Assembly (NCBI RefSeq): GCF_000019845.1
Contig: NC_010581.1
Span: forward strand, 1 to 64,000
DNA: 64,000 nucleotides
Reading direction: 5' to 3'
Origin: Beijerinckia indica subsp. indica ATCC 9039
GTDB lineage: Bacteria; Pseudomonadota; Alphaproteobacteria; Rhizobiales; Beijerinckiaceae
Positions 30,523 through 45,536 of this stretch are shown here, one piece after another (positions within the stretch are counted from its first letter, which is position 1; every line of letters starts with the position of its first letter). The translations under genes and the position numbers were made by a program. Under the pieces are notes generated by a model. The model saw only the letters and a list, made by a program, of their open reading frames with translations, was not told the DNA's origin and made no database searches.

Positions 30523-31511
30523 AAATTCTCGTCACAGGAGGCACTGGCCTTCTCGGCGGCCGCTTGATCCCGAGACTCGTGAAGGACGGTTACCAAATAT
30601 TCGCCCTCACACGTTCCGCATCGTCTCACGACAAACTAAAGGCATTGGGTGCATCTCCAGTCGACGCTGATCTGGAAAGCAGCGCGCCTCTGGCATTGCC
30701 AGCGATCGATGCCGTTGTGCACGCAGCCGCCCTGTTTCGCTTTGCGGGGCCACGCGAGCCCTTTTTTCGCACCAATGTCGACGGCACCGTCGCGCTTCTG
30801 AAGGCCACCGAGAAAGCCGGGGCGCAGACCTTCGTCTATATCAGTGCGGCGGGAATCATCATGGATGATGCCGGCACGCCTATCCGCGGTGCCGATGAAA
30901 GCGCCCCCATATTCCCGAACCACTTCTCTGCCTATCTGGCGAGCAAGGCACGGGCCGAGCCGTTGGTGCTGGCGGCCAACAAGCCTGGCTTTCGCACGAT
31001 CGCGCTTCGCCCACCGGCAATATGGGGGCCTGGTGATTCCTTCAGCCGTGAGCTTCCCCGTGTAATAAAGTCCGGGCAGTTCGCCTTCATCGATCGCGGC
31101 GACTACGCCTTTGCAACCTGCCATGTGGACAATGTGGTTGAAGCCGTACAATGCGCCCTTGAGTGCGGAGAGGGCGGTCGTGCCTTCTTCATCAACGATC
31201 AGGAAAGGCTGACCTTCCGGCAGTTCATCGCGTCGCTCGCGAGCTTGCAAGGTTTATCGATCGATAAGCTGCGGTCGATGCCTTACTGGCTCGCATCTGC
31301 TGTTGGCCGAATGCTGGACGCTATCTGGGCCATGACGCGGAGAGAAGGCAATCCACCGATCTCGCGCTCGATGATACGCATGATCGGGCGGGAGTTCAGC
31401 ATCAACGATGCTGCTGCACGCCGTGAGTTGGGCTATGTCGGAAGGACTTCGCGCGCTGATGGCTTGCGAAGCTATGGGACTCCCCTTCGATCGGCGGATC
31501 GATTTCCGTGA
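30519..31511 (+). CDS. NAD(P)-dependent extended-SDR epimerase/reductase
   Basis: 330-residue extended short-chain dehydrogenase. It begins MKILVTGGTGLLGGRLIPRLV with the GxxGxxG cofactor site. Further features are DAVVHAAALFRFAG, FVYISAAGIIMD, and the catalytic Tyr/Lys in FSAYLASKARAEPLVL. It resembles dihydroflavonol-4-reductase-like or 3-beta-HSD-like enzymes rather than sugar epimerases. Coupled to the upstream TetR by a 4-base overlap. Substrate unknown. Confidence 0.87.
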   Translation: MKILVTGGTGLLGGRLIPRLVKDGYQIFALTRSASSHDKLKALGASPVDADLESSAPLALPAIDAVVHAAALFRFAGPREPFFRTNVDGTVALLKATEKAGAQTFVYISAAGIIMDDAGTPIRGADESAPIFPNHFSAYLASKARAEPLVLAANKPGFRTIALRPPAIWGPGDSFSRELPRVIKSGQFAFIDRGDYAFATCHVDNVVEAVQCALECGEGGRAFFINDQERLTFRQFIASLASLQGLSIDKLRSMPYWLASAVGRMLDAIWAMTRREGNPPISRSMIRMIGREFSINDAAARRELGYVGRTSRADGLRSYGTPLRSADRFP

Positions 31512-31754
31512 GCCGTACCCTGAACTGCGCCCTCGAGAGCCGCATGATCGCGGGCTTCATGCCGAAAGATAACCGACGGATGAATCAATCCCGCCTCTCG
31601 TCATAGCGGCGCTGATGCTCCTGGATCTCCACCATGTTCTCGACGGTCCAGTGGATCCCGCTCGCAGCCTGCTGTGGCTGCTTCGTCGGCACGAAGCATC
31701 AGGAACGACCACGCCGGCGCCAATACGGAGAAGGTGCATTTCGTCACCCGATAT
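31512..31754. other. Spacer with a possible minus-strand gene remnant
   Basis: No intact gene. On the minus strand, about 31577-31705, a frame ends ...HWTVENMVEIQEHQRRYDE RRD-stop, which looks like a genuine protein C-terminus but is cut by a stop just upstream. It may be a leftover of a gene replaced by the cassettes. Identity unknown. Confidence 0.3.
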
Positions 31755-31800
31755 GGCGTGATGAGCAAGTTTTGTGGCATAAAACGCCAATGAGGTGGCG
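31755..31800 (+). promoter_or_regulatory. Cassette upstream element, copy A
   Basis: 46-base block closely matching 41078-41123 in front of the paralogous cassette. The core TGGC-N7-GCCA is an inverted repeat (TGGCATAAAACGCCAATG), preceded by a T-run and followed by TGGCG. It ends 93 bases before the SDR start. It is a likely promoter/operator for the cassette's AraC-type regulator. Confidence 0.65.
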
Positions 31801-31893
31801 CATCGTTCCCGCTAGGGTTCGTTCATGAGTGCGGCTCATCCCACTGCTGCCGCGCCGAACGGATCACCCGCTTCAAGAAACGGAACAGCGCAC

Positions 31894-32730
31894 ATGTCCA
31901 ACAAAGTCGCTCTCGTCACAGGCGCCTCCTCCGGCATCGGAGAGGCCACCGCGCTCAAGCTGAAGGACTTCGGCTATACTGTTTACGGGGCCGCCCGCCG
32001 GGTCGACCGCATGCAACACCTCACCAAGAGCGGCATCCAGATTCTGGCGATGGACGTTACCAACGATGCTTCCATGCAGGCTGGCATCGACGTGATCGTT
32101 GCCGAGGAGGGCCGGATCGACGTGCTCGTCAACAATGCCGGATACGGCTCCTACGGTGCTGTCGAAGACGTGCCGATAGAGGAGGCGCGCGCCCAGTTCG
32201 AGGTCAACGTCTTCGGCGCCGTCCGGCTAATCCAGCTCGCCCTGCCGCACATGCGCGCGCAGCGCTCGGGCACGATCGTCAACATTACCTCGATGGGCGG
32301 CAAGATCCACACCCCGCTCGGCGCCTGGTATCACGGCACCAAATTCGCGCTGGAGGCAATCAGCGATTGCCTGCGCATGGAAGTCCAGCCCTTCGGGATC
32401 GACGTGGTCGTGATCGAGCCGGGCGGCATCAAGACCGAATGGGCCGGCATCGCCGCCGACAAGCTGCGCCAGACTTCGGGCCATGGCCCCTATGCCGCGC
32501 AGGCCAATGCCATGGCGCAATCCATGGTCGGCGAGGCGAGCGTAAAGCTTCAGTCGCCGCCGCAGCTCATTGCCGACACGATCGCCAAGGCGGTGACTGC
32601 GTCCAAGCCAAAGACCCGCTATGCGATCGGTTTCGGGGCAAAGCCGATGATCTTCATGCGCGGCATCCTGTCCGACCGCGCCTTCGACGGCATGATGCGG
32701 ACGGCGACCGGTATCTCGAAGGTGATTTAA
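31894..32730 (+). CDS. Short-chain dehydrogenase/reductase, cassette A
   Basis: Classical SDR oxidoreductase, 278 residues. Cofactor motif TGASSGIGE near residues 9-17, structural NNAGYGSYG, catalytic Ser in NITSMGGK and Tyr/Lys in WYHGTKFALEA near 152. I start at ATG 31894; an upstream frame from 31825 adds unconserved residues. By eye about 17 substitutions separate it from the copy at 41211, and none falls between about residues 70 and 200. An AraC gene follows after 12 bases. Likely converts an alcohol or carbonyl compound; substrate unknown. Confidence 0.93.
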   Translation: MSNKVALVTGASSGIGEATALKLKDFGYTVYGAARRVDRMQHLTKSGIQILAMDVTNDASMQAGIDVIVAEEGRIDVLVNNAGYGSYGAVEDVPIEEARAQFEVNVFGAVRLIQLALPHMRAQRSGTIVNITSMGGKIHTPLGAWYHGTKFALEAISDCLRMEVQPFGIDVVVIEPGGIKTEWAGIAADKLRQTSGHGPYAAQANAMAQSMVGEASVKLQSPPQLIADTIAKAVTASKPKTRYAIGFGAKPMIFMRGILSDRAFDGMMRTATGISKVI

Positions 32731-32742
32731 GAAGGAATGAGC

Positions 32743-33768
32743 ATGGCTCAGGTCGACAGATGCAAGGTGCCGCAGGCTTTCTGGCGCGCCGTCGAGCATA
32801 TCGGCGTACCGCCCGTGGCACTGCTAAGACAGGCGCGGTTGCCCGCGACGCTGCATCTCGGCGGGCAAGCCTTCGTGACGACGGCGCAGTATTTCGCGCT
32901 GATGCGGGGATTGGAGGAACTGTCGGGTGATCCGGCCCTCGGCCTCCGCATGGTGCGCGAGGTCGATACGGCGGTCCATCCGCCGTCGAGCCTGGCAGCC
33001 TTTTATGCCCGCGACTATCGCGACGGGCTGGCCCGGCTCGCCCGCTTCAAGCGGCTCTGCATGCCAGAGCAATTGCAGATCGTCGAGGCGGGCGGCAACT
33101 GCACGATCTCGGTGGACTGGCCCTTCGCTACCGAGGCGGAGCCCGCCATTTCGGTCGACATCACCTTCGCCTCGCTCGTCGAACTGGGGCGGCGGGCGAC
33201 AGGCAAGGCCATCATGCCGCGCCGGGTGGAGTTCGCGCGACCGGGACCTGCGAGTACGGCACATGCGGACTATTTCGGCTGTCTGATACGCACCGGTACG
33301 CATGACCTTCTGGTGCTCGATGCGGCCGATCTCGACCGGCCGTTCCCCGGACACAATCCGGAAATGCTGGAGATGCTGACCCCGGCACTCAGCGCAGCGC
33401 TTGGCGAGTTGGAGGCGCAAAGCTCGGTCGCCGAACAGGTAAAGATCGTGCTCAAACGCTGCCTGGCGAGCGGCCAGCCCGGCCTGTCCGATATCGCAAG
33501 GCAGCTCGGCATGAGTGATCGCACCCTGCAGCGTCGCATCACGGAGGAAGGCTCGACCTTCCGGGGCCTCCTCGCCGAGGCACGCCGCGATCTCGGTCGC
33601 CGCCTGCTCACCGATCCAGCGACCGACATCGACGAGGTGGCCTGCCTGCTAGGCTATCATGACACGACCTCCTTCTATCGCGCCTTCCGGGAATGGGAGG
33701 GCATGCCGCCGAACCGCTGGCGGGAGATGCATCTGCCCAAAGGTGCGGCCGTCATCGGCCTTTACTAA
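32743..33768 (+). CDS. AraC family transcriptional regulator, cassette A
   Basis: 341-residue activator with an N-terminal Arabinose_bd-type ligand domain (FWRAVEHIGVPPVALLRQA, then GDPALGLRMVREV). The C-terminal AraC double helix-turn-helix is LSDIARQLGMSDRTLQRRI and IDEVACLLGYHDTTSFYRAF, near 250-320. ATG 32743 matches the start of the paralogue (MAQVDxCKxPQAFW) and has AAGGA upstream. It probably controls the cassette through the TGGC-N7-GCCA element upstream of the SDR gene; this is inferred from its position and duplication. Confidence 0.93.
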   Translation: MAQVDRCKVPQAFWRAVEHIGVPPVALLRQARLPATLHLGGQAFVTTAQYFALMRGLEELSGDPALGLRMVREVDTAVHPPSSLAAFYARDYRDGLARLARFKRLCMPEQLQIVEAGGNCTISVDWPFATEAEPAISVDITFASLVELGRRATGKAIMPRRVEFARPGPASTAHADYFGCLIRTGTHDLLVLDAADLDRPFPGHNPEMLEMLTPALSAALGELEAQSSVAEQVKIVLKRCLASGQPGLSDIARQLGMSDRTLQRRITEEGSTFRGLLAEARRDLGRRLLTDPATDIDEVACLLGYHDTTSFYRAFREWEGMPPNRWREMHLPKGAAVIGLY

Positions 33769-33828
33769 CCCATTATGTCCAGGCGCGCGGATCGGCGTGT
33801 CGCGTCCTTCCAGCGGAGTTTTCTGTCC

Positions 33829-34503
33829 ATGATGCAACGCATCCTTCTCGCCGGCAGCACCGGTCTGGTTGGCGCTCTCGTCGGTGCCCGGCTCGCGACA
33901 CGTTCCGACATCGATCTCGTCGCTCTCGTCCGGCGGGGATCGTCCGCCCCCGGCAGCGGGATTGATTTCGAGCGGCTGTGCGACGCGCCCGAGGCCATGC
34001 TGAAACCCATCGTGTCCGACGGTATCGATGTCGCTATCTCCTGCCTCGGCACAACCATCCGCACGGCTGGATCGCAGTCGGCCATGTTCCGTGTCGACCA
34101 TGATTATGTGCTCGCCGCCGCCAGGGGCGCCCGCGCATTGGGGGCGCGCCAGTTCATCCTCGTCACCGCCGCAGGGGCCGGTGGCCCCGGCTTTTATTTG
34201 CAGACCAAGGGCGCGATTGAGCGCGCCGTCATTGATCTGGGCTTTGATCGGGTGGACCTGATACGGCCCGGATTCCTGCTGGGCAGCCGCAGCGAACGGA
34301 GGGTGTGGGAGGCGATCGGCCAGCGGCTCTTCGCGGCGCTCACCCCCGTCTTACTCGGCCCGCTCTCACGCTACGGCGCCATTCCCGCGGAGACGGTGGC
34401 GGAAGCGATCGTCGGGCTCGTCGGACGCGAAGAAACTGGACGTTACATTCACCACAATGCCGATCTGCGTCGCATCGGCCGTCGCGAACATGCCGTGCCA
34501 TAG
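33829..34503 (+). CDS. NAD(P)H-binding atypical SDR protein, cassette A
   Basis: 224-residue Rossmann-fold protein beginning MMQRILLAGSTGLVGALVGARLA. Further features are DVAISCLGTTIRTAGSQ, ARQFILVTAAGAGGPGFYLQTKGAIE and VDLIRPGFLLGSR. It is similar to HTATIP2/YbjT-like NAD(P)-binding oxidoreductases. Start at ATG 33829 with GGAG 11 bases upstream. It is the last gene of cassette A and intact, unlike its paralogue at 44583-45247. Catalytic role unknown. Confidence 0.87.
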   Translation: MMQRILLAGSTGLVGALVGARLATRSDIDLVALVRRGSSAPGSGIDFERLCDAPEAMLKPIVSDGIDVAISCLGTTIRTAGSQSAMFRVDHDYVLAAARGARALGARQFILVTAAGAGGPGFYLQTKGAIERAVIDLGFDRVDLIRPGFLLGSRSERRVWEAIGQRLFAALTPVLLGPLSRYGAIPAETVAEAIVGLVGREETGRYIHHNADLRRIGRREHAVP

Positions 34504-34592
34504 AGGGAGAACGGCGGCAATCGGTGGGTTTCGGCGGCTAAAATGGAGAAAGAGGCGTCCATATCGGACAATTGGCGGTGTTTGACGCCGCT

Positions 34593-35495
34593 TCACCTGA
34601 CCGGAAACGTCACTCCGGTGAGCTCTTCGGAGACGGTCCACAGGCGCCGTTGGACGGCCTGGTCGTAGGAGTCGGCGCTGGAGGTGACCAGCTTCGGATA
34701 TCCGCGGACTTCACCCCACCCGCCGGGGCCGTAATATTGCCCGCCGAGAACCGCCGGATCGGTGGCGGCGCGCAGCGTCGGCAAGGCGCCCATTTCGGGC
34801 TTCTGGGTGAGCAGTGGTGCAAGCCAGCGGATGGGGCCGCGAAACGCGGCCGGCAGGTTTCGGATGAGTTCCGTGTTGGACACGCCGGGATGGGCCGCCA
34901 CCGCGATTGTGGCGCCGTGGGGTGCGAGCCGGCGCTGCAGTTCGTAGGTGAACATCAGGTTGGCCAGTTTGGACTGGCCGTAGGCGCCGGCGCGGCTGTA
35001 CGAGCGCTCCCACTGCAGATCGTCGAAATGGATGGCGGCCTGAATACGATGGCCGGTGCTGCTGACCGTCACGACGCGGGAGCCGGGAACGGGCAGGAGA
35101 CGGTCGATCAGGAGACCGGTCAGCGCGAAGTGGCCGAGGTGGTTGGTGCCGAACTGCAGTTCGAAACCGTCCGAGGTGGTCTGCCTCGGGGTGTACATCA
35201 CTCCGGCGTTGTTGATCAGCAGATCGATGCGCGGATAGGCGGCCCGCAGGTCGGCCGCCGCCGACCGGATCGAGTCCAGCGAGGTCAGATCGAGCGCTTG
35301 GACGGCGACGTCACCCGCGATGCGCGCGGCTGCCTGCCCGCCCTTCTCGACATCGCGGACCGCGAGGACCACTTTCGCTCCATGCGCGGCAAGCATCCGT
35401 GCCGTTTCGAAGCCCAGCCCAGTGTTGCCGCCGGTGACGATCGCGATCCGACCGTGCTGGTCGGAGATGTTCTGCTCGGTCCAATTGCCACTCAT
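34593..35495 (-). CDS. Short-chain dehydrogenase (retinol/protochlorophyllide-reductase-like)
   Basis: 300-residue SDR with RIAIVTGGNTGLGFETARML, DLLINNAGVMYTPRQTT and FGTNHLGHFALTGLL. Catalytic Ser is in VVTVSSTGH and Tyr/Lys in GAYGQSKLANLMFT. This pattern is typical of the broad WWOX/retinol dehydrogenase-like group. It is divergent from a TetR gene with three repeats of AGACC-N3-GGTCT between them, so it is very likely the repressor's target. Substrate not predictable. Confidence 0.92.
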   Translation of the reverse strand: MSGNWTEQNISDQHGRIAIVTGGNTGLGFETARMLAAHGAKVVLAVRDVEKGGQAAARIAGDVAVQALDLTSLDSIRSAAADLRAAYPRIDLLINNAGVMYTPRQTTSDGFELQFGTNHLGHFALTGLLIDRLLPVPGSRVVTVSSTGHRIQAAIHFDDLQWERSYSRAGAYGQSKLANLMFTYELQRRLAPHGATIAVAAHPGVSNTELIRNLPAAFRGPIRWLAPLLTQKPEMGALPTLRAATDPAVLGGQYYGPGGWGEVRGYPKLVTSSADSYDQAVQRRLWTVSEELTGVTFPVR

Positions 35496-35511
35496 GGTGC
35501 GTTCCTATAGA

Positions 35512-35574
35512 ACCATCGGTCTGTAATAAGGGAATTTAAAGACCGATGGTCTGATGTCAAGAGACCGTCGGTCT
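35512..35574. promoter_or_regulatory. Triple palindromic operator AGACC-N3-GGTCT
   Basis: Two perfect sites, AGACCGATGGTCT (35540-35552) and AGACCGTCGGTCT (35562-35574), have centres 22 bp apart. A third, less perfect site ACCATCGGTCT (35512-35522) sits next to the divergent SDR start. They fill the gap between SDR and TetR genes. Confidence 0.78.
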
Positions 35575-35592
35575 TTAATCAAAGGCGAAGGT

Positions 35593-36258
35593 GTGACTTT
35601 CCAGCGGGCACGAAACGAGGAGCAACGGGAGGCCCGTCGCCGGCTGATCCTGGACACAGCGGTAGCAATGCTCGACGAGATGCCTTTGGCCGAGGTGAGC
35701 CTCAACGAACTCAGCCGGCGGGTGGGCTTGGCCAAGTCGAACGTCCTGCGCTATTTCGAATCGCGCGAGGCGGTGCTGCTCGAACTGCTGGATGACTTCC
35801 TTGGACGCTGGCTCGTCGATCTGGCGGCCGAACTGGCCGGAGGTATCGACGCGCAGGCGGCGCCGGAACTACGGGCAGCTCAGCTGGCCGAGATCCTCAG
35901 TTCCTCGCTGGCGGACCGACCGGCGCTGTGCGACCTCTTCGGCGCGCAGGGCGGCGTCCTGGAGCACAATGTCTCGGTCGAAGTGATCAAAAGGCACAAG
36001 CGGTCCTCGCTCGGCAGGCTCGCGACCATGACCGAACTCGTGCGACACCATGTGCCGGAGCTTGGCGATGGCGCGCAAATGTTCTGCCTGATGAGCCTTC
36101 TCTCGGCAGGCGCGCTGTCAGCCTATGTCCCGCCACCACCCAGTCTCCTTGCCGCTTACGCGGACGAGCCCGCCCTTGGCGCGCTTCATATGGAATTGCG
36201 TGATGCTCTGCGGGCTTCCTTCACCTCGACGCTGTTGGGCGTGCTGCCGCGAGCCTAA
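35593..36258 (+). CDS. TetR family transcriptional regulator
   Basis: 221-residue regulator. The helix-turn-helix is VSLNELSRRVGLAKSNVLRYFESREAVLLELL near residues 36-67, followed by a helical ligand domain. I choose GTG 35593 with AAGG seven bases upstream. An ATG at 35554 would place translation start inside an operator copy and add an unconserved segment. Divergent from the SDR gene and separated by three copies of a palindromic operator, so self- and SDR-repression is expected. Confidence 0.9.
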   Translation: MTFQRARNEEQREARRRLILDTAVAMLDEMPLAEVSLNELSRRVGLAKSNVLRYFESREAVLLELLDDFLGRWLVDLAAELAGGIDAQAAPELRAAQLAEILSSSLADRPALCDLFGAQGGVLEHNVSVEVIKRHKRSSLGRLATMTELVRHHVPELGDGAQMFCLMSLLSAGALSAYVPPPPSLLAAYADEPALGALHMELRDALRASFTSTLLGVLPRA

Positions 36259-36399
36259 CCGAGCATCAACCAGCCAACGGCTCATCTGCGATGATCAGCA
36301 CCAGTCGCCACAGGCTGTCAAAACGGCTACCGAGCGCTGTCCCTGACGACTTTCCAGATGTTCGACGGGACGATATCGGCTGGATTCAAATATGATTTG

Positions 36400-36649
36400 A
36401 TGGTGCCGTATCGGGCTATAGCGTGGAATCGGTGGTTCCTATCCCGCGTGGTGGTATGCGATGGTCGGTGGTAATATCGGGCCATAGAGGGAAATCGGCG
36501 GGGCTGGCGGGCAGCGCCCGACGAAGATGAACCCTACGAAATCACCATAAGCCTATGACGAATATACCTATCTCTCAAATCATGCGGCAAGCGGCGGGTT
36601 TCGGCGGCCATGGCGGGCTATAGGTGGTTATGGCGCGCCATAGAGGGCT
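36400..36649. repeat. Degenerate spacer repeat R1
   Basis: Gap between TetR and a hydrolase operon (36259-36649) with no intact gene. It contains a stretch from 36505 closely resembling 38873-38925, and recurring CCATAGAGG and ATCGGCGG words (36482, 36493, 36640). On the plus strand both repeats can be read as the same C-terminal peptide WRAAPDEDExYEI followed by a stop, with mostly third-position differences. They look like decayed copies of one gene end. The parent gene is not recognised. Confidence 0.5.
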
Positions 36650-37558
36650 TCATGCTCCTGGATGATGCGATCCCTTCTTCGCCACGTCGCAGATCGCGTT
36701 GATCACCGTCTGGTCGAGTTCGGGTGGCAGGTCGTGTCCCATGCCTTCGATCGGCCTATGGATCGCGTTGGGGATTGAAAGCGCCGTATCGTGGCCGCAG
36801 GCTAGCGGGATCAGCGGATCGACGGTCCCATGAATGACGAGCGCAGGCGCGGTGATCGTCGCCAGACGCGCGCGCCGGTCTCCCGCCACCGCCATGGCCG
36901 CGATCTGCCGCGCGATCCCGGCCGGATCATAGCAGCGTCCCGCTTCTTCCAGCAGAAGGGCACGATGGACGTCCTCGTCGAACGGATAGGCCGTTCCGGC
37001 AATCCTGCGCGCGAAGGCGAGACGCACCGCCAGAAAGCCGTCCGGATCGACAGCGGGATCGGGCGCGGGACGCATCATCATCGCCATCATATCGGGGGCC
37101 GCCTGAGGCAGGGCCGGATTGCCCGTGCTCGACATGATCGAGGTTAGCGAAAGGACACGGTCGGCATGTTCGCTCGCCAGGACCTGCGCGATCATGCCGC
37201 CCATCGACCGGCCAACGGCATGGACCCGCGCGATGCCGAGCGCGTCGAGGAGACCGGTGGCATCGGCCGCCATGTCGTGAAGCGTATAGGGAACATCGGG
37301 CCGTCGCCCCGCCATCAGCGCGACGGCCAGCGCCCCGAAATCCGGCGGGGCCGAAGCACTGAAATGCGTGGAGCAGCCGGCATCCCGGTTGTCGAAGCGG
37401 ATGACGCGATACCCCATTGCGGCGAGCGCTTCGCAAAAGGGCACCGTCCACCGGAGCATCTGTGCTCCAAGCCCGGAGATCAGAAGGATGGTTTCATCTG
37501 TGGAATTGCCGAAACTGTCCCAAGCCAGTTCAATGTCGTTGGCTTTCGTCCGGGTCAT
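36650..37558 (-). CDS. Alpha/beta hydrolase
   Basis: 302-residue hydrolase of the aclacinomycin-methylesterase/epoxide-hydrolase-like group. It begins MTRTKANDIELAWDSFG. Features are LLISGLGAQMLRW, VIRFDNRDAGCSTHF, nucleophile elbow AVGRSMGGMIAQ with the catalytic Ser, APALVIHGTVDPLIPL with the likely Asp, and GMGHDLP with the likely His. The ATG overlaps the stop of the DUF1330 gene by four bases. Last gene of a three-gene coupled operon. Confidence 0.9.
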   Translation of the reverse strand: MTRTKANDIELAWDSFGNSTDETILLISGLGAQMLRWTVPFCEALAAMGYRVIRFDNRDAGCSTHFSASAPPDFGALAVALMAGRRPDVPYTLHDMAADATGLLDALGIARVHAVGRSMGGMIAQVLASEHADRVLSLTSIMSSTGNPALPQAAPDMMAMMMRPAPDPAVDPDGFLAVRLAFARRIAGTAYPFDEDVHRALLLEEAGRCYDPAGIARQIAAMAVAGDRRARLATITAPALVIHGTVDPLIPLACGHDTALSIPNAIHRPIEGMGHDLPPELDQTVINAICDVAKKGSHHPGA

Positions 37559-38016
37559 GAACTTGTTCCATTCGGACTGAGAGGGAGCCGCAATTCGGAG
37601 AGGGGCAGAAGACGCGAATCCTCGATGGCTGCCGCGCGATGACCAAGACCGACGAGATATCCCTCGTTGCCAGCAAAGGAGAGGAAGGACGCGACGCTCG
37701 CCTGCCGGACCAGCATCGCCATGTCCCACCGCTCGTCGGCGGGACCGATCAGGAACCCTCCGCCCGCCCCGAGAAACAGAACATCGCCCCCAGTTTCGCG
37801 CAAATAGGGCAGCGTATGCCGGACATAGCGGTTGAAGGCCTCGGCGCCGCTGATCGGCATGGCGGGCGCCAGTTCGGGATGGGCGGAATAGTCGGCGGCA
37901 TCCCTGAACTTAAGCAGATTGAGCATCGCAATGGGACCGGTAAGGCCGCGCTGCATGAACAGCCGGCCGGCTTCCTGTGTCGGCTCGATATACGAAAGGG
38001 GTTCGGACCTGCTCAT
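37555..38016 (-). CDS. DUF1330-like protein
   Basis: 153-residue protein starting MSRSEPLSYIEPTQEAGRLF. GPIAMLNLLKFRDAADYSAHPEL and the end of the dimeric ferredoxin-like fold (ASVASFLSFAGNEGYLVGLGHRAAAIEDSRLLP) are characteristic of DUF1330 and related NIPSNAP-like proteins. ATG 38016 overlaps the upstream stop and its own stop overlaps the next start. Biochemical function not known. Confidence 0.82.
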   Translation of the reverse strand: MSRSEPLSYIEPTQEAGRLFMQRGLTGPIAMLNLLKFRDAADYSAHPELAPAMPISGAEAFNRYVRHTLPYLRETGGDVLFLGAGGGFLIGPADERWDMAMLVRQASVASFLSFAGNEGYLVGLGHRAAAIEDSRLLPLSELRLPLSPNGTSS

Positions 38017-38675
38017 TGGCGTTTTTCCCCTGTCGTTCGGTCTTGATCCGGGTGAGTGGAAGAGCCGAAGGCGAGGCGCATGGCATAGGCCCGGATGTCC
38101 TCCGGCCAAGCCGCGATCCGCTCCTCCAACGCGGAGCGGTTGTCCGCGAAAAGGGCGCGCGTCGCCTCCTCGTAGCCGTGCAGGTCACCGGCGATCGCCT
38201 GCATGAATCGATACGCGGCCTCCTGCGCCGCCCGCCTTTGCTGGCGCGGATGCAGCGCCTTGCGGGCATCGTCCACGAGACGCCGCAGTGTCGCCGACGC
38301 GCCGCCCGGCTGGGTCGCTAGCCACTCCCATTGCCGCGGCAGCAAGGTTACTTCGCGGGCGACAACGCCCAGTTTCGGCCGCCCGCGGCCCCTCTGCCCG
38401 TCCTCTGGTTCCCCATTGCCGGAGGTCGCATCGGCTTTGGGACGATAGCGACCCGCATGCGGTTTTGGAGGCTCGGAGAGCCGCTCGAGAATCTCCGCAT
38501 CGCTGCCGCGTAGATCGAGATCGACGACACAGCCTGTCGCATCGTCGAACACGAGGACCGCATCCGCCGTCCCGGCGGACCGCGCGACCGCAATGGCCAC
38601 ATCCGCCAGCGGACCGGAAAACAGCAATTGCCGGCCAGTGAAAGCCGTGCAGGGTTTGGTCAGGGAATCGGACAT
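38013..38675 (-). CDS. DUF2239 family protein
   Basis: 220-residue protein. It has an N-terminal beta-rich part (CTAFTGRQLLFSGPLADVAIAV, then AVLVFDDATGCVVDLDLRG). A Pro/Gly/Arg linker leads to REVTLLPRQWEWLATQPGGASATLRRLVDDARK, which looks like a DNA-associated helical region. This layout is DUF2239. First gene of the coupled operon. ATG 38675 chosen; ATG 38696 would add seven residues. Role unknown. Confidence 0.82.
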   Translation of the reverse strand: MSDSLTKPCTAFTGRQLLFSGPLADVAIAVARSAGTADAVLVFDDATGCVVDLDLRGSDAEILERLSEPPKPHAGRYRPKADATSGNGEPEDGQRGRGRPKLGVVAREVTLLPRQWEWLATQPGGASATLRRLVDDARKALHPRQQRRAAQEAAYRFMQAIAGDLHGYEEATRALFADNRSALEERIAAWPEDIRAYAMRLAFGSSTHPDQDRTTGEKRQ

Positions 38676-38706
38676 ATCGCGCTCGCCAGAATGCATGCGC
38701 TATTAA

Positions 38707-38744
38707 TACCCGGGTGAAATATCACCGTCAATTATGTCCGGGTA
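38707..38744. promoter_or_regulatory. Candidate operator upstream of the DUF2239 operon
   Basis: Inverted repeat TACCCGG (38707-38713) / CCGGGTA (38738-38744) enclosing a second small palindrome GGTGAAATATCACC. It lies about 30 bases upstream of the DUF2239 start. The regulator is not identified. Confidence 0.5.
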
Positions 38745-38859
38745 ATATACGACTACTTTATCGGACGGCTGGTTCACCGCACGAAGTTCCGCCCTTGATC
38801 GAAAGGGATATGGAAGGAAACCGGGGGCGTTCGGCGGTAAGCCGTTCTTAAAATGGGCC

Positions 38860-39005
38860 ATTTCGGCCAAGATGGCGGGCAGCGCCCGATGAAGACGAGA
38901 ACTATGAGATCGTTATAACCATCTGATATTTATGTGGATACTCATGGTAATGCGGAAATTGGCGGTTTTCAGCGGCATTTAGGTAGCTGATGGCGGCCAT
39001 AGTGG
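38860..39005. repeat. Degenerate spacer repeat R2
   Basis: Part of the 38676-39216 gap. Block 38873-38925 matches R1 and encodes the same short tail WRAAPDEDExYEI with stop. Further similarity continues through GCGGCATTTAG...GGCCATAGTGG. No gene in the remaining spacer. Confidence 0.5.
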
Positions 39006-39216
39006 ACGTTCGACGGGACATTTCCGCTAAGCCTTCTCATTGCTGCCAATCAGTCAATCTCCGGCCCTGGGCACCCGGAGCCACTATTGGCATGAGCCTG
39101 GCTGGGCCAAAACCACGATTGGCGTCGCAAGCAAAAGCGGTGGCGCCCTGCGCCAATGCTTCCGCATATTTCGCCTGCCATTCTTGTTCGCCTTCGTAGC
39201 AACAAGGATCAACAGT

Positions 39217-40068
39217 ATGTCGGAAAAAATCTGGTTCATCACAGGTGCATCGAGGGGCTTTGGCCGCATCTGGGCCGAAGCTGCGCTTGAACGTGGCGAC
39301 AAAGTTGCCGCCACAGCCCGCAATACGGAAAGCCTTTCGGAGCTAGCCAGCCGTTTCGGCGATAAGGTGTTGCCTCTTCAGCTTGACGTCACCGATGCAG
39401 ATGGCGTCAGGCGAGCAGTCGCAGACGCGCACCGGCACTTCGGGCGGCTGGACGTTGTCCTGAACAACGCAGGATATGCATTGGTCGGCGCGATCGAGGA
39501 AGTCGATGAGAAGGATCTTCGCGCCGAGCTGGACACCAATGTGTTCGGAATGCTCCGCGTCATCCAGGCTTCTCTTCCCTATCTGCGGGCGCAGGGGAGT
39601 GGTCACATCGTCAGCGTTTCTAGCGTGGCAGGCATCGTCGCCAATCCGATCGCAGGCGCCTACAACATGTCGAAATGGGCAGTCGAAGCGATGCACGAGG
39701 CGCTTGCCCAGGAAGTCGAAGGCTTTGGCATCAAGGTGACGCTGATCGAGCCCGGCGCTTATGCCACAGATTTTGCCAGCGCCACCTCCCTCAAGATTTC
39801 AGAAGGCCTTGAGGCTTATGCCCCACTGCGGGAGCAAGCGTTCACAGCCGGAGCGAAGATGGAATTCGGCGATCCGCGTGCGACAGCTGCGGCCATCCTG
39901 AAGCTGGTGGATGTGGAAACGCCGCCGTTGCGTTTTTTCCTCGGCACGGAAGGTCTGCCAGTGGCACGCGCGGCCTATTCAGCGCGGCTTTCCGCCTGGG
40001 AGGCATGGGAGGCCGAATCCAACGCCGCTCAGGGCAACGGCAAACAGCACACCATAGCGACGCTGTAA
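39217..40068 (+). CDS. Short-chain dehydrogenase/reductase
   Basis: 283-residue SDR. It starts MSEKIWFITGASRGFGRIWAEAAL, with NNAGYALVGAIEEV, catalytic Ser in VSVSSVAGI and Tyr/Lys in GAYNMSKWAVEA. The C-terminus is typical: FFLGTEGLPVARAAYSARLSAWEAWE. ATG 39217 has AAGGA nearby; a longer upstream frame from 39040 is unconserved. A DUF2147 gene follows. A diverged copy of its C-terminal end is found at about 40650-40735. Substrate unknown. Confidence 0.92.
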   Translation: MSEKIWFITGASRGFGRIWAEAALERGDKVAATARNTESLSELASRFGDKVLPLQLDVTDADGVRRAVADAHRHFGRLDVVLNNAGYALVGAIEEVDEKDLRAELDTNVFGMLRVIQASLPYLRAQGSGHIVSVSSVAGIVANPIAGAYNMSKWAVEAMHEALAQEVEGFGIKVTLIEPGAYATDFASATSLKISEGLEAYAPLREQAFTAGAKMEFGDPRATAAAILKLVDVETPPLRFFLGTEGLPVARAAYSARLSAWEAWEAESNAAQGNGKQHTIATL

Positions 40069-40124
40069 GAGCCGCTCGATCACAGACAGCCGGGCCATGC
40101 GGCCAAACAACGAGGATCGACTTC

Positions 40125-40589
40125 ATGCACACATTGACGGCATCCCGCCGATCGCTGCTTTTCGGGGCGTTGGCCATGACAACCTTGGCCATAGCTGGCC
40201 CCGCGTTCGCTCAACAGACATCGCAAGACGCCATACTTGGCAAATGGGCAGCAGATGACGGCAGCGTAAAGCTTGAGATGTTCAAATCGGGAGCGGAGTT
40301 TTGGGCTCATCTTCTCTTCGGCAATCAGATCATGGAAGCCGACAATACGACGTTCAAGAAAGACACCAAGAACCCCGATCCTACGCTACGAAGCCACTCC
40401 CTCGAGAACATCGTATTCATCCACGGACTGCATTGGGATAACGGCGAATGGACCGGGGGCTCGCTTTATGACGCCTCGTCCGGCAGCACCTATAAGTGCA
40501 AAGTCGAAATGAAGGGCAACAAGATGTTGCTCAGAGGCTATCTCGGCATTTCTCTTCTGGGGCAGACCCGGGAATTTCACCGCTTTTGA
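40125..40589 (+). CDS. Exported DUF2147 protein
   Basis: 154-residue periplasmic protein. The signal peptide is RRSLLFGALAMTTLAIAGPAFAQ. The mature part begins TSQDAILGKWAADDGSVKLEMFKSG and contains the DUF2147 pattern ending GNKMLLRGYLGISLLGQTREFHRF. ATG 40125 has GAGGA about eight bases upstream. Same direction as the preceding SDR, gap 56 bases, so they may be co-transcribed. Function unknown. Confidence 0.87.
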   Translation: MHTLTASRRSLLFGALAMTTLAIAGPAFAQQTSQDAILGKWAADDGSVKLEMFKSGAEFWAHLLFGNQIMEADNTTFKKDTKNPDPTLRSHSLENIVFIHGLHWDNGEWTGGSLYDASSGSTYKCKVEMKGNKMLLRGYLGISLLGQTREFHRF

Positions 40590-40639
40590 AGCCACGCCGC
40601 CCCCGCGTCGCCACGGCGAACTTGGGGGCGGCAGGCCAT

Positions 40640-40740
40640 TTACCTGGAAGCCGAAACTGCACGACGGCATGCCGGCCGCACGGACCGCTTATGCCGCTCG
40701 TCTGGTTAAGTGGAAAGCTTGGGCGCAATCGTCCGTGGCA
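40640..40740 (+). pseudogene. Remnant of an SDR C-terminus
   Basis: In frame, the region reads KLHDGMPAARTAYAARLVKWKAWAQSS. This resembles the end of the SDR at 39217 (LPVARAAYSARLSAWEAWEAES), with about half the residues matching and many third-base differences. No start or Rossmann part is present. Probably a leftover from an older SDR copy. The rest of 40590-41077 has no supported gene. Confidence 0.45.
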
Positions 40741-41077
40741 ATCCTTGCGGGATCGTTCTGGCATCTGCGGACCGGAGGCTCTTTCTATCAGTTCACCTAC
40801 GGCCCGCGCTGCCCTGTTCCACGACCCATCCCCGATCGGCTCGGCCTCAAGGCGAGCTTCGTCGGCAAGACAATGCAGAACGTCCCGCCTGCCGCCGTCT
40901 ATCGCATTGTCCACCGTCCTCCTTTTAGTGCTCCGGCCCCATTGGCGGCGTCAGATGACGGCAAGACCGGCTAGGCCATCGTCCTTCTTGCGCTCGGTAA
41001 CAGCTTCATGGGGGGCATCACTTGCTGCGAAGTACGTTGTCGAGGGACTCGGAGCGGGCACATTGCGTCAACGCGTT

Positions 41078-41123
41078 GGCGTAATGTGCAAATTTTATGG
41101 CATAAAGAGCCAATGTGATGGCG
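41078..41123 (+). promoter_or_regulatory. Cassette upstream element, copy B
   Basis: Matches 31755-31800 base for base over most of 46 positions, including TGGCATAAA and GCCAATG. Core inverted repeat TGGC-N7-GCCA. It ends 87 bases before the SDR start, nearly the same spacing as copy A. Confidence 0.65.
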
Positions 41124-41210
41124 TGTTGGCTTAGCTACTTATCGTCCAGAAGACATTGCCGCCGTGCCAGGGCAGCAAAAGCAATCGGTTCGAACAAAAG
41201 GAACTACGCC

Positions 41211-42062
41211 ATGACCACAAAAGTCGCACTCGTTACCGGCGCCTCATCGGGCATCGGCGAGTCCACCGCCCTCAAACTTAAGGAGCTTGGCTGCACGGTC
41301 TATGGCGCGGCCCGCCGCGTTGACCGGATGCAACACCTGACCAAGTCCGATATCCGGATTTTGGCGATGGACGTCACCGATGACGCCTCGATGCAGGCTG
41401 GCATCGACAAGATCATCGCCGAGGAGGGCCGGATCGATGTGCTCGTCAACAATGCCGGATACGGCTCCTACGGCGCAGTCGAGGACGTGCCGATAGAGGA
41501 GGCGCGCGCCCAGTTCGAGGTCAACGTCTTCGGCGCCGTCCGGCTAATCCAGCTTGCCCTGCCGCATATGCGGGCGCAGCGTTCGGGCACGATCGTCAAC
41601 ATCACCTCGATGGGCGGCAAGATCCACACCCCGCTCGGCGCCTGGTATCACGGCACCAAATTCGCGCTGGAGGCGATCAGCGATTGCCTGCGCATGGAAG
41701 TGCAGCCCTTCGGGATCGACGTCGTCGTAATCGAACCGGGTGGCATCAAGACGGAGTGGGCCGGTATAGCCGCTGACAAGTTGCGCCAGACTTCGGGTCA
41801 CGGCCTCTATGCCGCGCAGGCCAATGCCATGGCGCAATCCATGATCGGCGACGCCAGCGTCAAGCGCCAGTCACCGCCGCAGATCATTGCGGACACGATC
41901 GCCAAGGCCGTGACTGCGTCCAAGCCAAAGACCCGTTATGCGATCGGTTTCGGGGCAAAGCCGATGATCTTCATGCGCGGCATCCTGTCCGACCGCGCCT
42001 TCGACGGCATGATGCGGACGGCGACCGGCATCTCCAAAGCCTTGAAGGGCCAGAAGGTTTAG
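41211..42062 (+). CDS. Short-chain dehydrogenase/reductase, cassette B
   Basis: 283-residue paralogue of the SDR at 31894 with the same motifs (TGASSGIGE, NNAGYGSYG, NITSMGGK, WYHGTKFA). It differs mainly in the first 70 residues and after residue 200, and ends five residues later (KALKGQKV). Two DNA stretches of 71 and 92 bases are identical to copy A. ATG 41211 is preceded by AAGGAAC. An aldehyde dehydrogenase follows after 14 bases, so the pair may oxidise an alcohol to an acid. Confidence 0.93.
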   Translation: MTTKVALVTGASSGIGESTALKLKELGCTVYGAARRVDRMQHLTKSDIRILAMDVTDDASMQAGIDKIIAEEGRIDVLVNNAGYGSYGAVEDVPIEEARAQFEVNVFGAVRLIQLALPHMRAQRSGTIVNITSMGGKIHTPLGAWYHGTKFALEAISDCLRMEVQPFGIDVVVIEPGGIKTEWAGIAADKLRQTSGHGLYAAQANAMAQSMIGDASVKRQSPPQIIADTIAKAVTASKPKTRYAIGFGAKPMIFMRGILSDRAFDGMMRTATGISKALKGQKV

Positions 42063-42076
42063 TCGGAGTCTCTGCG

Positions 42077-43486
42077 ATGCGCGATATCCTGAAGAACTAC
42101 ATTGATGGCGCCTGGGTCGCTTCAGCTGGAGTTGATACGCGGGACATCATCAATCCCGCCACTGGCCAAGTGTCGGGCCGAATGGCGCTCAGTACGGCCG
42201 AGGACGTCAAGCGTGCAGTGGCTGTCGCGCGGCAGGCGTTCGCGGGCTATTCCCGGACAAGCGTGGAGGAACGCGCGACCCTGCTGAACCGCATCGCCGA
42301 GGTTCATGAGGCGCGCGCGGAGGACATGGCGCAGGCGGTGACGCTGGACATCGGCATGCCGATCGCCTTCGCCCGCATGACCGTCGGTGCGGGCACTGGA
42401 CAGTTCCGCTTTCTTGCCAAGGCGATCGGCGATTATCCTTTTGCCCTCGTTCAGGGAGGAACCCGGATCGTAAAAGAGCCGATCGGCGTCGCCGGATTGA
42501 TCCCGCCATGGAACTATCCCTCGCTCCAATCGGCGGAAAAGATCGCACCCGCGCTCGCCGCCGGTTGCACGATGATCCTGAAGCCGGGCACGCCCTACAC
42601 CAATCAGGTCCTGGCCGAGATTCTCGACGAGGCCGGCGTGCCGAAAGGCGTGTTCAACCTCGTCAACGGGCGGGGTTCGGTGATCGGCATGGCGTTCAGC
42701 CGCCACCCGGATGTCGATATGATCGCCTTCACCGGTTCGACCGGCGTGGGAATCCAGGTGCAGAAGGATGCCGCCGAGACGGTCAAGCGCGTCAGCCTGG
42801 AGCTTGGCGGCAAGTCACCGCACATCATTTTGCCGGACGCCGATTTCGAAGCAGCCGCGAAGGGCGCCGTCGCCAAGGTCATGAGCAACTCCGGCCAGAC
42901 CTGCGCCGCGCCCACGCGCACCTTGGTTCCGCGTGCCCACAAGGCCGAACTCGAGGCGATGATCCGCACGGCGGCCGAGGCAATCCGGGTCGGCGATCCG
43001 CTGACCGACGTCGATATGGGTCCGGTCGCTAACGAAGCCCAGTGGCACACGGTGCAGCGTTACATCCAGTCGGGCATCGACGAGGGCGCGACGCTGCTTG
43101 CCGGCGGCCCCGGTCATCCCGAGGTGGCGGACGAAGGCTGGTTCGCGCGCCCGACCGTCTTTGCCGATGTCCGCAACGATATGACGGTTGCTCGCGAGGA
43201 AATCTTCGGGCCGGTCATGTCGCTGATCGCCTATGACACGGTGGACGAGGCGGTCGAGATCGCCAATGACACGCCCTATGGCCTTGCCGCCTATGTCGAC
43301 GGTAGCGACGACAAGACCGTCCAGGACGTGGCATCCCGCCTGCGGGCGGGACAGGTGATTCTCAATGGCGCGCAGCCCGACCTCCAGGCGCCGTTCGGTG
43401 GCTACAAACAGTCAGGCAACGGCCGCATCTGGGGGCTGGCGGGTCTTGAAGAATATCTTGAGACCAAGGCGATCGTGGGAGTCTGA
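42077..43486 (+). CDS. NAD(P)-dependent aldehyde dehydrogenase, cassette B
   Basis: 469-residue aldehyde dehydrogenase. The N-terminus KNYIDGAWVASAG is typical. Cofactor segment GVAGLIPPWNYPSLQ, IAFTGSTGVGIQVQ, catalytic Glu in VSLELGGKSPHII, catalytic Cys in SNSGQTCAAPTRTL, and C-terminal APFGGYKQSGNGR are all present. GGAG lies eight bases upstream. Its stop overlaps the AraC start region (TGATG). It is absent from cassette A, so it was gained in B or lost from A. Likely oxidises the aldehyde made by the SDR; inference. Confidence 0.94.
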   Translation: MRDILKNYIDGAWVASAGVDTRDIINPATGQVSGRMALSTAEDVKRAVAVARQAFAGYSRTSVEERATLLNRIAEVHEARAEDMAQAVTLDIGMPIAFARMTVGAGTGQFRFLAKAIGDYPFALVQGGTRIVKEPIGVAGLIPPWNYPSLQSAEKIAPALAAGCTMILKPGTPYTNQVLAEILDEAGVPKGVFNLVNGRGSVIGMAFSRHPDVDMIAFTGSTGVGIQVQKDAAETVKRVSLELGGKSPHIILPDADFEAAAKGAVAKVMSNSGQTCAAPTRTLVPRAHKAELEAMIRTAAEAIRVGDPLTDVDMGPVANEAQWHTVQRYIQSGIDEGATLLAGGPGHPEVADEGWFARPTVFADVRNDMTVAREEIFGPVMSLIAYDTVDEAVEIANDTPYGLAAYVDGSDDKTVQDVASRLRAGQVILNGAQPDLQAPFGGYKQSGNGRIWGLAGLEEYLETKAIVGV

Positions 43487-43488
43487 TG

Positions 43489-44523
43489 ATGGCACAGGTC
43501 GACAAGTGCAAGATCCCGCAGGCGTTCTGGCGGGCAGCTGAGCAGTTCGACATCCCGTCGGCCGCGCTGTTGCGGCAGGCGCGGCTGCCGGCAACGCTTC
43601 ATCTGGGCACACAAGTCTTCGTCACCACGGCGCAGTATTTCTCGCTGATGCAGGCGATGGCGGACCTGTCCGGCGACTCCGCGCTTGGCATCCGAATGGT
43701 GCAATCCGTCGATACGGCGGTCCATCCGCCGTCGAGCCTCGCCGCCTTCTATGCCCGCGACTATCGCGACGGGCTGACCCGGCTCGCACGGTTCAAGCGC
43801 CTGTGCACCCCAGAGCAGTTGCAGGTCGTCGAGGCGGGTGGCGACTGCACCATCTCCACCGAATGGCCCTTCGCCGCGGCAGCCGAACCCAGCATATCCG
43901 TCGATATTACTTTCGCCACGTTGGTAGAACTGGGACGGCGCGCTACCGGGCGTACCATCGTGCCACGTCGGTTGGAGCTGACCCGGCCGGGACCGATAGA
44001 CGCAATTCATGCGGAATATTTCGGCTGCCCGATCCGTACCAAGGCCCCGCGGAACCTTTTGGTGCTCGACGCCGCCGATCTCGATCGTCCGTTCCCGGGA
44101 CACAATCCCGAGATGCTGGAGATGCTGACGCCGGCCCTCGGGGCGGCGCTCGGTGAGTTGGAGGCGCAGAGTTCGATCGCCGAACAGGTGAAGATCGTGG
44201 TGAAACGCAGTTTGGCGAGCGGCCAGCCCGGCCTCTCCGACGTGGCAAAGCAACTCGGCATGAGCGATCGAACCCTCCAGCGGCGTATCACCGAGGAAGG
44301 ATCGACCTTTCGTGATCTGCTGTCGGAAGCTCGCCGGGATCTTGGTCGCCATCTCCTGACCGACCCCGCCACGGACATCGATGAAGTGGCCTGCCTGCTC
44401 GGCTATCAGGACACCACGTCCTTCTACCGCGCTTTCCGGGAATGGGAAGGCATGCCGCCGAACCGCTGGCGCGAGACGAATATGAACAGGCCCCGCGCAC
44501 TTGAAACCGCCGGTCTCCATTGA
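43489..44523 (+). CDS. AraC family transcriptional regulator, cassette B
   Basis: 344-residue paralogue of the regulator at 32743. It has the same ligand domain (FWRAAEQFDIPSAALLRQA) and the same C-terminal helix-turn-helix pair (LSDVAKQLGMSDRTLQRRI, IDEVACLLGYQDTTSFYRAF). It is more diverged from copy A than the SDR genes are, especially in the middle, so ligand specificity may differ. ATG 43489 is preferred over 43486 for spacing to GGGAG. Probably acts at the element 41078-41123. Confidence 0.93.
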   Translation: MAQVDKCKIPQAFWRAAEQFDIPSAALLRQARLPATLHLGTQVFVTTAQYFSLMQAMADLSGDSALGIRMVQSVDTAVHPPSSLAAFYARDYRDGLTRLARFKRLCTPEQLQVVEAGGDCTISTEWPFAAAAEPSISVDITFATLVELGRRATGRTIVPRRLELTRPGPIDAIHAEYFGCPIRTKAPRNLLVLDAADLDRPFPGHNPEMLEMLTPALGAALGELEAQSSIAEQVKIVVKRSLASGQPGLSDVAKQLGMSDRTLQRRITEEGSTFRDLLSEARRDLGRHLLTDPATDIDEVACLLGYQDTTSFYRAFREWEGMPPNRWRETNMNRPRALETAGLH

Positions 44524-44582
44524 AGCGGCCAAGCAGTGCAAGAAGGTCAGGATTACGATCCGCCTCGAAAAGGTGCAGCCAG

Positions 44583-45247
44583 ATGACCCGTCGCATTCTT
44601 CTTGCCGGCAGCACCGGATTGGTGGGTGGCCTCGTCGGCACCCGACTGGCTGGCACACCCGAGGTTGATCTTATCCGCCTCGTTCGAAACGGGGCGTCGG
44701 GGTACGGCCATGCCATCAATTTCGAGCGGCTTTGCCAGGAACCTGCAGGCCATTGGAGTCGATCGCACCCGACGGCGTCGATATCGCTATCTCCTGCCTG
44801 GGGACGACCTATCGCCACGGCCGGCTCGCAGGCGGCGATGTTCCGCGTTGATCATGACTATGTCCTCGCCGTCGCTCAAGGTGCGAGAGCGCTAGGCGCG
44901 CGCCAGTTCATCCTCGTGACCGCGGCAGGGGCCGGTGGACCGGGATTCTACCTTCAGACCAAGGGCAAGATCGAACAGGCAGTCACGGCTCTCGGCTTCA
45001 AGCGCGTCGATATTATCCGCCCGGGCTTCCTGCTCGGCACGCGCGGCGAGCGGCGGTGTGGGAAGTAATCGGCCAAAGGATTTTCGCAGTGCTCACGCCA
45101 ATACTGGTTGGCCCATTGTCGCGTTACGGCGCTGTCCCCGCAGATACGGTGGCCGATGCGATCGTCACGCTCATCGGACAGGCAGCACCCGGCTGCAACG
45201 TTCATGAGAACAATAACCTGCGCCGCCTCGCGGCCCCCGCGCGCTAA
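44583..45247 (+). pseudogene. Frameshifted NAD(P)H-binding SDR, cassette B
   Basis: Corresponds to the intact gene 33829-34503. It starts MTRRILLAGSTGLVGGLVG. Compared with copy A, one base is lost between about 44735 and 44765, one is gained near 44808-44815 (restoring frame), and one G is lost near 45056. The last deletion gives an early stop, GERRCGK. The missing C-terminal part, WEVIGQRIFAVLTPILVG..., continues in another frame to 45247. Three indels make a sequencing error alone unlikely, although raw reads would settle it. Confidence 0.85.
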
Positions 45248-45446: not shown

Positions 45447-45536
45447 TGGCGGAGAGGGGGGGATTCGAACCCCCGATAGGCTTGCACCTATGCCGCATTT
45501 CGAGTGCGGTGCTTTCAACCACTCAGCCACCTCTCC
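45447..45536 (-). tRNA. tRNA-Ser (anticodon CGA)
   Basis: 90 bases on the minus strand including an encoded CCA. Acceptor stem GGAGAGG pairs with CCTCTCC, discriminator G. The anticodon loop reads CTCGAAA, giving CGA (codon UCG). A long variable arm, typical of serine tRNAs, and TTCGAAT in the T loop are present. The accessory island lies on its 3' side; no repeated 3'-end fragment was found. Confidence 0.96.

Follow-up and report, generated by a model that had tools for sequence, protein, structure and literature searches.

A putative AraC-type regulon of carbonyl- and alcohol-processing enzymes in Beijerinckia indica, with two apparently separately descended cassettes and a shared predicted operator

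AraC/XylS-family activators at araBAD- and rhaBAD-type promoters follow a class II geometry, and class II AraC activators are often catabolic. VirS of Mycobacterium controls the mymA operon, which includes genes for a short-chain dehydrogenase/reductase (SDR), an alcohol dehydrogenase, a monooxygenase and an acyl-CoA ligase, QhpR has an amine dehydrogenase context, and YqhD belongs to a dehydrogenase family other than the SDRs. PMC8262776 describes YqhC of Escherichia coli as an AraC-N type regulator that activates the carbonyl-reducing enzymes YqhD and DkgA against aldehydes, and PMC12538310 describes the AraC regulator WhpR and the dhoB SDR of Pseudomonas savastanoi as members of one cluster, with WhpR a repressor of most operons in an oxygenase-containing region for indole oxidation. 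Here we analyzed a 64,000-bp stretch of Beijerinckia indica subsp. indica ATCC 9039 (contig NC_010581.1, positions 1 to 64,000; the window), in which two cassettes of SDR, AraC and NAD(P)-binding genes, and a further SDR gene between them, are each preceded by the same putative operator. We consider it fairly probable that these genes form an acquired, autoregulated and inducible AraC regulon that processes carbonyl compounds or alcohols, probably for detoxification. The features concerned are as follows.

31753..31792, forward strand: operator 1, two direct half-sites 21 bp apart, before SDR1; 1 mismatch to the consensus
31894..32730, forward strand: SDR1, classical SDR of the NCBIfam PRK06182 subfamily (465 bits, cut-off 305)
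32737..33768, forward strand: AraC1, regulator with Arabinose_bd (PF12625) and HTH_18 domains
33775..34503, forward strand: NAD(P)-binding protein 1 (NADb1), TIP30/PA4017-like; homology from about 33829
39119..39158, forward strand: operator 3, before SDR3; 2 mismatches
39217..40068, forward strand: SDR3, PRK08263 subfamily (423 bits, cut-off 290)
40125..40589, forward strand: DUF2147 protein (PF09917), 56 bp after SDR3
41076..41115, forward strand: operator 2, before SDR2; 0 mismatches
41211..42062, forward strand: SDR2, PRK06182 subfamily (463 bits)
42077..43486, forward strand: aldehyde dehydrogenase (ALDH; PF00171), in the same position in Sphingobium L038 (82% identity)
43486..44523, forward strand: AraC2, Arabinose_bd and HTH_18 domains
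44520..45229, forward strand: NAD(P)-binding gene 2 (NADb2), frameshifted; open frame ends at 45068

The order upstream element, SDR, AraC regulator, NAD(P)-binding protein was present twice, as a sequence-only reading of this DNA had proposed, and open reading frames (ORFs) and Pfam domains agreed on copy 1 (SDR-AraC-NAD(P)-binding, 31825-34503) and copy 2 (SDR-ALDH-AraC-NAD(P)-binding, 41115-45068). This gene content can be read off the DNA directly, as can the operator, its recurrence with the regulator, the promoter geometry and the separation of the copies in trees. The pairwise alignment of the cassettes recommended in that reading aligned all shared pieces at 73.5-90% DNA identity: the SDR pair at 90% (851 bp), the AraC pair at 80% (993 bp), the NAD(P)-binding pair at 73.5% (597 bp) and the upstream element at 80% (65 bp, E 6e-7). 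Identity between the copies is far above chance, confirming that both SDRs and both AraCs are paralogous. SDR1 (465.3 bits) and SDR2 (462.7 bits) both passed the PRK06182 (NF004826) cut-off of 305 bits, and the YxxxK motif of SDRs was visible in the SDR translations. NADb1 scored 25.0 bits against PF13460, just below the Pfam cut-off of 27.2, and matched 2a35 (PA4017; 5.5e-24) and TIP30 (2bka; 2.7e-19) in the PDB; NADb2 had no Pfam match. The ALDH gene is present in copy 2 as described, but not as a one-off insertion, since Sphingobium sp. Sx8-8 has SDR-ALDH-AraC too. The two cassettes had been correctly seen, whereas the third operator and the SDR3-DUF2147 pair between them had been overlooked.

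In working principle the cassettes resemble YqhC-YqhD, although membership is not claimed: the regulators here carry PF12625 without an AraC-N domain and the targets are SDRs and an ALDH. WhpR/dhoB shares the clustering of an AraC regulator with an SDR, whereas the window cassette genes include no oxygenase.

An alignment of both window copies and eight related loci revealed a conserved block before the SDR gene (TTGGCG, GCAA, TGGC and GCCAATG at fixed distances), weaker in Paraburkholderia hospita. The operator consensus is TTGGCG-N5-TGCNANT, present twice with 21-bp spacing. With up to 3 mismatches it occurs at three sites in the 4.42-Mb genome, all within 9.4 kb of cassette region, and a reversed-pattern control in the same genome gave none. 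A weight matrix was built from 17 seed sites, chosen by similarity to the consensus with up to 6 mismatches. Operators 1, 2 and 3 scored 47.3, 48.5 and 36.7 bits in-sample and 41.3, 41.2 and 29.1 bits leave-one-out, respectively. Operator 3 is made more credible by SDR3 and/or DUF2147 homologues near the cassette in four species (Rhizobium mesoamericanum, R. jaguaris, Rhizobium sp. CB3171 and P. hospita), which also have the site with 3 to 5 mismatches.

All 11 AraC-bearing loci outside the seed contained at least one site, the best per locus scoring 18.7-34.2 bits, while the best score in a shuffled control (5 x 64 kb of window, 200-bp blocks, both strands) was 13.0 bits. These loci came from genomes (L060-L064, AraC 47-68% identical to AraC2) and from plasmids of Rhizobium sp. 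SSA_523, R. etli 8C-3, Thioclava, Sinorhizobium fredii and two Paenibacillus (L068-L073, AraC 46-56% identical; the L069 AraC is broken, with a C-terminal piece at 66%). With the addition of L034-L039 and L043-L045, which belong to the seed set, and of L074, another R. jaguaris locus, the site was found in 21 of 21 other loci scanned with an AraC 46-86% identical, in Alphaproteobacteria, Paraburkholderia and Paenibacillus. On the other hand, five loci whose AraC is a remnant (L041, L042, L065) or remotely related (L066, at 37%; L067, the third PF12625 AraC of the window genome) had no site of 18 bits or more; the best score among them, 12.5 bits, fell in a stretch of N. L040 also had no site but is an unfair control, its contig beginning inside AraC. 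The plasmid records covered were 9 of the 14 found (all but H29, H30 and H32-H34), the operator scan left out remote AraC loci and G111 (34%), and the counts disregard overlapping shadows of sites on the reverse strand or shifted by 21 bp.

A structured RNA, an attenuator or a mobile repeat, rather than a protein-binding operator, would also produce a conserved intergenic element that is repeated and has inverted as well as direct symmetry. We find this hardly credible: Rfam gave nothing around 31.7 or 41.1 kb at E values up to 1, and the element lies upstream of the predicted transcription start, has three copies in this genome and occurs with this AraC elsewhere. Over 31-46 kb the Rfam output consisted of the tRNA, with two sub-threshold hits overlapping it, and a further sub-threshold hit at 35.0 kb.

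The direct half-sites were recognized from the 41-site matrix, whose self-correlation reaches 0.75 at an offset of 21 and stays at 0.19 or less at the other offsets from 8 to 29. Offset 60 carried the box TANNNT in 15 of the 24 non-seed sites and 8 of the 17 seed sites, against at most one at any of 25 other offsets in either set, and TA occupied columns 60-61 in 18 of 24 and 14 of 17, respectively. The -10 columns lie outside those used for the site search; the 24 non-seed sites include four of L074 and one each of L044 and L045, and are in that respect partly dependent on the seed. With the -10 box at this fixed offset, the downstream half-site falls at the -35 position, which is the class II AraC layout. 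The corresponding boxes in the window are:

31813-31818, forward strand: predicted -10 of operator 1, TAGGGT
41136-41141, forward strand: predicted -10 of operator 2, TACTTA

The predicted transcription starts are about 31825 and 41148. Because the ORF start of SDR1 (31825) coincides with a predicted transcription start and that of SDR2 (41115) falls inside operator 2, both were moved inward, the true starts probably being 31894 and 41211. As in the araBAD- and rhaBAD-type promoters, there are two direct half-sites 21 bp apart, each of two boxes about one turn apart, with the downstream one at -35 and at a fixed distance to -10. Unlike in those systems, the ligand domain is PF12625, the half-site sequence is another and the enzymes are not sugar enzymes; activation here is predicted.

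The two regulators have an N-terminal PF12625 domain (99.2 and 102.8 bits, cut-off 27.6) and a C-terminal HTH_18 domain (74.9 and 71.2 bits, cut-off 33.6). PF12625, HTH_18 and HTH_AraC were their only Pfam domains, with no ligand domain of the AraC_N type. Their DNA-binding helix-turn-helix (HTH) regions are 92.7% identical, compared with 76.8% for the ligand domains. RTLQRR is invariant in operator-bearing AraCs and SFYRAF nearly so (SFHRAF in L064, SFFRAF in L072); both motifs are identical in AraC1 and AraC2, and both are changed in the remote operator-less AraCs of L066 and L067. Because the HTH regions are nearly identical and these motifs are shared, AraC1 and AraC2 probably both read all three operators. 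The earlier proposal of a regulated module is supported.

The best NCBIfam regulator match of both proteins was QhpR (NF049968), at 157.3 and 169.1 bits against a cut-off of 250, and its amine dehydrogenase context was not seen among the window genes scanned; a literature search for QhpR gave only unrelated uses of the letters among the matches listed. In the PDB, VirS (8rcx) was the sole match spanning both AraC2 domains (E 2.6e-18, residues 28-329), and the VirS-mymA system also has an AraC-type regulator beside SDR genes. A VirS-like role, with envelope lipids or fatty acyl chains being modified by the SDRs and their regulator, would suit this match and the SDR and alcohol dehydrogenase of the VirS operon. 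Such a role is nevertheless improbable, the similarity being remote and neither a monooxygenase nor an acyl-CoA ligase being the first gene after an assigned operator. Neither gene was seen in the window cassettes or among the Pfam-scanned genes, which covered part of the flanks of the other loci.

The gene order is kept in other genomes, contrary to the possibility, raised in the sequence-only reading, that it is conserved nowhere else. In the co-occurrence search, five named genomes with AraC identities of 77-81% had an SDR gene directly before AraC, while a sixth with a near-full-length AraC (L039, 53%) had none there. A relative of SDR1/2 (at least 50% identity) directly precedes AraC in 12 of the 21 loci scanned. 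AraC itself lies downstream of a same-strand site in 19 of these 21 loci (exceptions L071 and L073), suggesting autoregulation. At L066 (G658), around 5850, the 37%-identical AraC without operator has an SDR-like gene directly upstream, so that the pairing of SDR and AraC may extend beyond the operator. Remnants of the AraC C-terminus were observed at L041 8080-8937, L042 8001-8799 and L005 785-1749 (Rhizobium sp. Root1334, a Nitrospira metagenome-assembled genome and G015), each with a TIP30-like NAD(P)-binding gene behind it that is largely covered by the match; at these loci the last cassette gene outlives its regulator.

The first gene after each of 42 listed sites was assigned by similarity to window proteins, annotation, ORF start sequence (L039, L063) or Pfam. 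SDRs accounted for 24 (14 PRK06182-like of the SDR1/2 type, 5 SDR3 and 5 other), followed by DUF2147 (5), AraC (4), aldo/keto reductases (2), alpha/beta-hydrolases (2), a glutathione S-transferase (GST), a SnoaL protein and a methyltransferase; two sites had no assignment. Five DUF2147 homologues elsewhere stand directly behind their own operator. The list includes a 27.2-bit site (L074 8791, minus strand), with no assignment for the gene behind it, that is outside the 41-site matrix and the 24-site set. In two Rhizobium plasmids an operator copy precedes a methyltransferase-like gene or short ORF (L074 3271, 26.6 bits; L045 2980, 28.5 bits), an unexpected target.

Since the targets are mostly carbonyl/alcohol-active or conjugating enzymes, detoxification is favoured over growth-supporting catabolism. 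In a catabolic module the SDRs and ALDH would convert an alcohol to a ketone or aldehyde and then to an acid for growth, with AraC as a classical catabolic activator. The SDR-ALDH order in the window and Sphingobium, the frequent catabolic function of class II activators and the P. rhizovicinus neighbourhood, with a carboxymuconolactone decarboxylase-family gene and several oxidoreductases, agree with this alternative. However, no oxygenase, CoA ligase, ring-cleavage enzyme or transporter comes first after any of the 40 assigned sites (first genes only), and GST and aldo/keto reductases are targeted elsewhere. Beside SDR and AraC, the five genomes with the closest AraC show few other block genes (ALDH in L038, NADb in L035, SDR3 in L037, plus two weak SDR matches in L034 and L038). 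In P. rhizovicinus a multidrug-resistance (MDR)-type major facilitator superfamily transporter follows the AraC and NAD(P)H-binding genes; it suits efflux, not uptake, and fits detoxification, whereas the carboxymuconolactone decarboxylase-family gene nearby does not especially. We regard the catabolic alternative as unlikely, though it deserves serious consideration.

For the detoxification regulon, we infer the operon structure, the activation and the kind of inducer as follows. The inducer, a small molecule that is probably a reactive aldehyde, ketone or alcohol, would bind the PF12625 domain of AraC1 and/or AraC2. The regulator would bind the two direct half-sites, the downstream one at the -35 region, and bring RNA polymerase to a promoter whose -10 box is TANNNT. 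Three transcripts would be switched on: SDR1-AraC1-NADb1, SDR3-DUF2147 and SDR2-ALDH-AraC2-NADb2 (NADb2 broken). Each regulator would sit in an operon under its own control, giving positive feedback, and the enzymes would reduce or oxidize the carbonyl compound, most likely as detoxification.

The 90% DNA identity of the SDRs and the same gene order would be expected if one cassette had recently been duplicated in place and had then gained an ALDH gene and decayed, a history implied by the sequence-only reading. The trees speak against it, since neither the two AraCs nor the two SDRs come together. In the AraC tree (63 rows) AraC2 grouped with P0001 (100/85), with P0002 (Agrobacterium sp. T29) near, and AraC1 with P0034 (97/82); an AraC1+AraC2 clade appeared in 0 of 200 bootstrap trees, and forcing it cost 88 log units (approximately unbiased test, p 2e-114). 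In a 65-row SDR tree the SDR1+SDR2 clade was likewise found in 0 of 200. Third-position identity of the AraC pair (58%) resembles that of pairs from different genera, being 59-60% with Sphingobium and 55-60% with Rhizobium wenxiniae, again counter to a recent duplication. For the SDR pair it was 57% (32/56) in the first 60 alignment codons and 82% (182/222) after them, compared with 64-70% in the same later region when SDR1 or SDR2 was set against Sphingobium, R. wenxiniae or Labrys (six comparisons). The identity of the SDR pair clusters in unbroken stretches of 92, 71 and 71 bp (codon shuffles: longest run, p 0.0035; sum of the three, 0/2000), and in eight comparator SDR pairs the longest run was at most 49. 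A recent duplication thus appears very improbable. Because the identical SDR tracts are clustered, the data suggest two separately descended cassettes whose SDR genes partly exchanged tracts by gene conversion; the SDR tree on its own does not show conversion.

The AraC subfamily is rare and scattered. Relatives at E 1e-40 were found in 6 of 397 family genomes (one at 34%) and at 1e-60 in 3 of 398 genomes across the phylum (one at 37%), the window genome being counted in both. In the protein database at least 896 of 7999 scored AraC candidates reached 1e-40, and at least 7810 of 8000 scored SDR candidates 1e-60; the SDR type is far commoner than the AraC subfamily. Between the 119 AraC and 120 SDR clusters listed, 20 longest contigs of more than 3 kb were equal in size, a sign of AraC-SDR linkage, although any one of these agreements in length may be fortuitous.

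G001, the one genome of the same genus in the set, had no match to this AraC at E 1e-40. It is collinear with the window from 45384 to at least 48348, the end of the compared stretch, and matches the left side to about 28.8 kb on another contig. Against 28.9-41.5 kb it gave short matches only, and 41.5-45.4 kb was compared with 60 kb of G001 contig C5. The stretch for which no counterpart was found at the corresponding place of G001 is bounded on the right by the following gene.

45447..45536, reverse strand: tRNA-Ser(cga)

These comparisons suggest an acquired block ending at tRNA-Ser. A tRNA-targeted element was considered and is unsupported: the 160-bp tRNA region, searched for an attachment repeat, had no second match above 14 bp in the window, and no integrase-like ORF start was seen among those inspected by eye (without a Pfam scan). 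A defence system was also rejected, PADLOC on six proteins giving only a 19.9-bit partial match, to the AraC1 HTH.

Other features of the surroundings were recorded. Just left of copy 1, at 29947-31511, a TetR regulator gene overlaps the start of a 3Beta_HSD/OleD-like oxidoreductase gene, a further regulator-oxidoreductase unit. Between the cassettes, at 34593-36258, a divergent SDR and a TetR-like regulator (by eye) with no operator of 10 bits or more are apparently a second, separate oxidoreductase/regulator pair. The mostly intergenic segment 25272-25397 had 83-90% matches at three G001 places (C2, C7, C9) and represents a dispersed repeat family; the short segments 36409-36609 and 38811-39016, inside the block that is otherwise specific to this genome and with 74-86% matches to several G001 contigs (C13, C5, C25, C24), are perhaps another intergenic repeat. 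A DnaA-like protein (by eye) is encoded at 1503-3041, near the start of the 4.17-Mb contig, which we take to mark the likely origin; the cassette region would then be about 30 kb away.

Several observations weigh against an intact, operator-defined detoxification regulon with exchange between its SDR genes. Detoxification is drawn from the enzyme classes, and an SDR with an ALDH suits catabolism equally. The NADb2 frame is broken, tblastn with NADb1 matching one frame and then another to about 45229, with indels in the alignment, and the -10 box of operator 3 is poor (CATTCT). Similarity to the consensus guided the choice of the seed, and one seed site reached only 13.5 bits leave-one-out, while the 46% AraC limit for carrying the regulator was fixed after the fact. 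The site was found in 7 of 397 family genomes, and AraC is carried by the window genome and G262; the other five have one 3-mismatch site each, two above 25 bits. In none of these five is there a TA where the -10 box would lie, or a relative of the AraC at E 1e-40. Chance does not fully account for them, the reversed control having given 0, and the matrix alone is imperfectly specific. As for gene conversion, three comparator SDR pairs also had longest-run p values of 0.015-0.025, and conversion would be partial, SDR1 and SDR2 not being united in the SDR tree.

No description of the gene set or operator was found among the best literature matches, mostly without subscription journals, which is weak evidence of novelty. 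Tentatively, the AraC subfamily and its operator may be a portable control unit placed before varied carbonyl-active enzymes from Alphaproteobacteria to Paenibacillus. Two such units of separate descent would be stacked in one island, where two regulators with different ligand domains would act on one set of three promoters and combine two related signals in a single response, and gene conversion would keep the lead enzyme alike. The analysis turns an unlabelled SDR/AraC pair into a proposed regulon whose operator and promoter are spelled out and which is seen in two phyla, and offers an example of two apparently separately descended cassettes with one shared operator. It may supply a new inducible promoter, and a reporter could seek the inducer and substrate directly. 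It also gives a testable context for PRK06182 and PRK08263 SDRs, DUF2147 and TIP30-like proteins.

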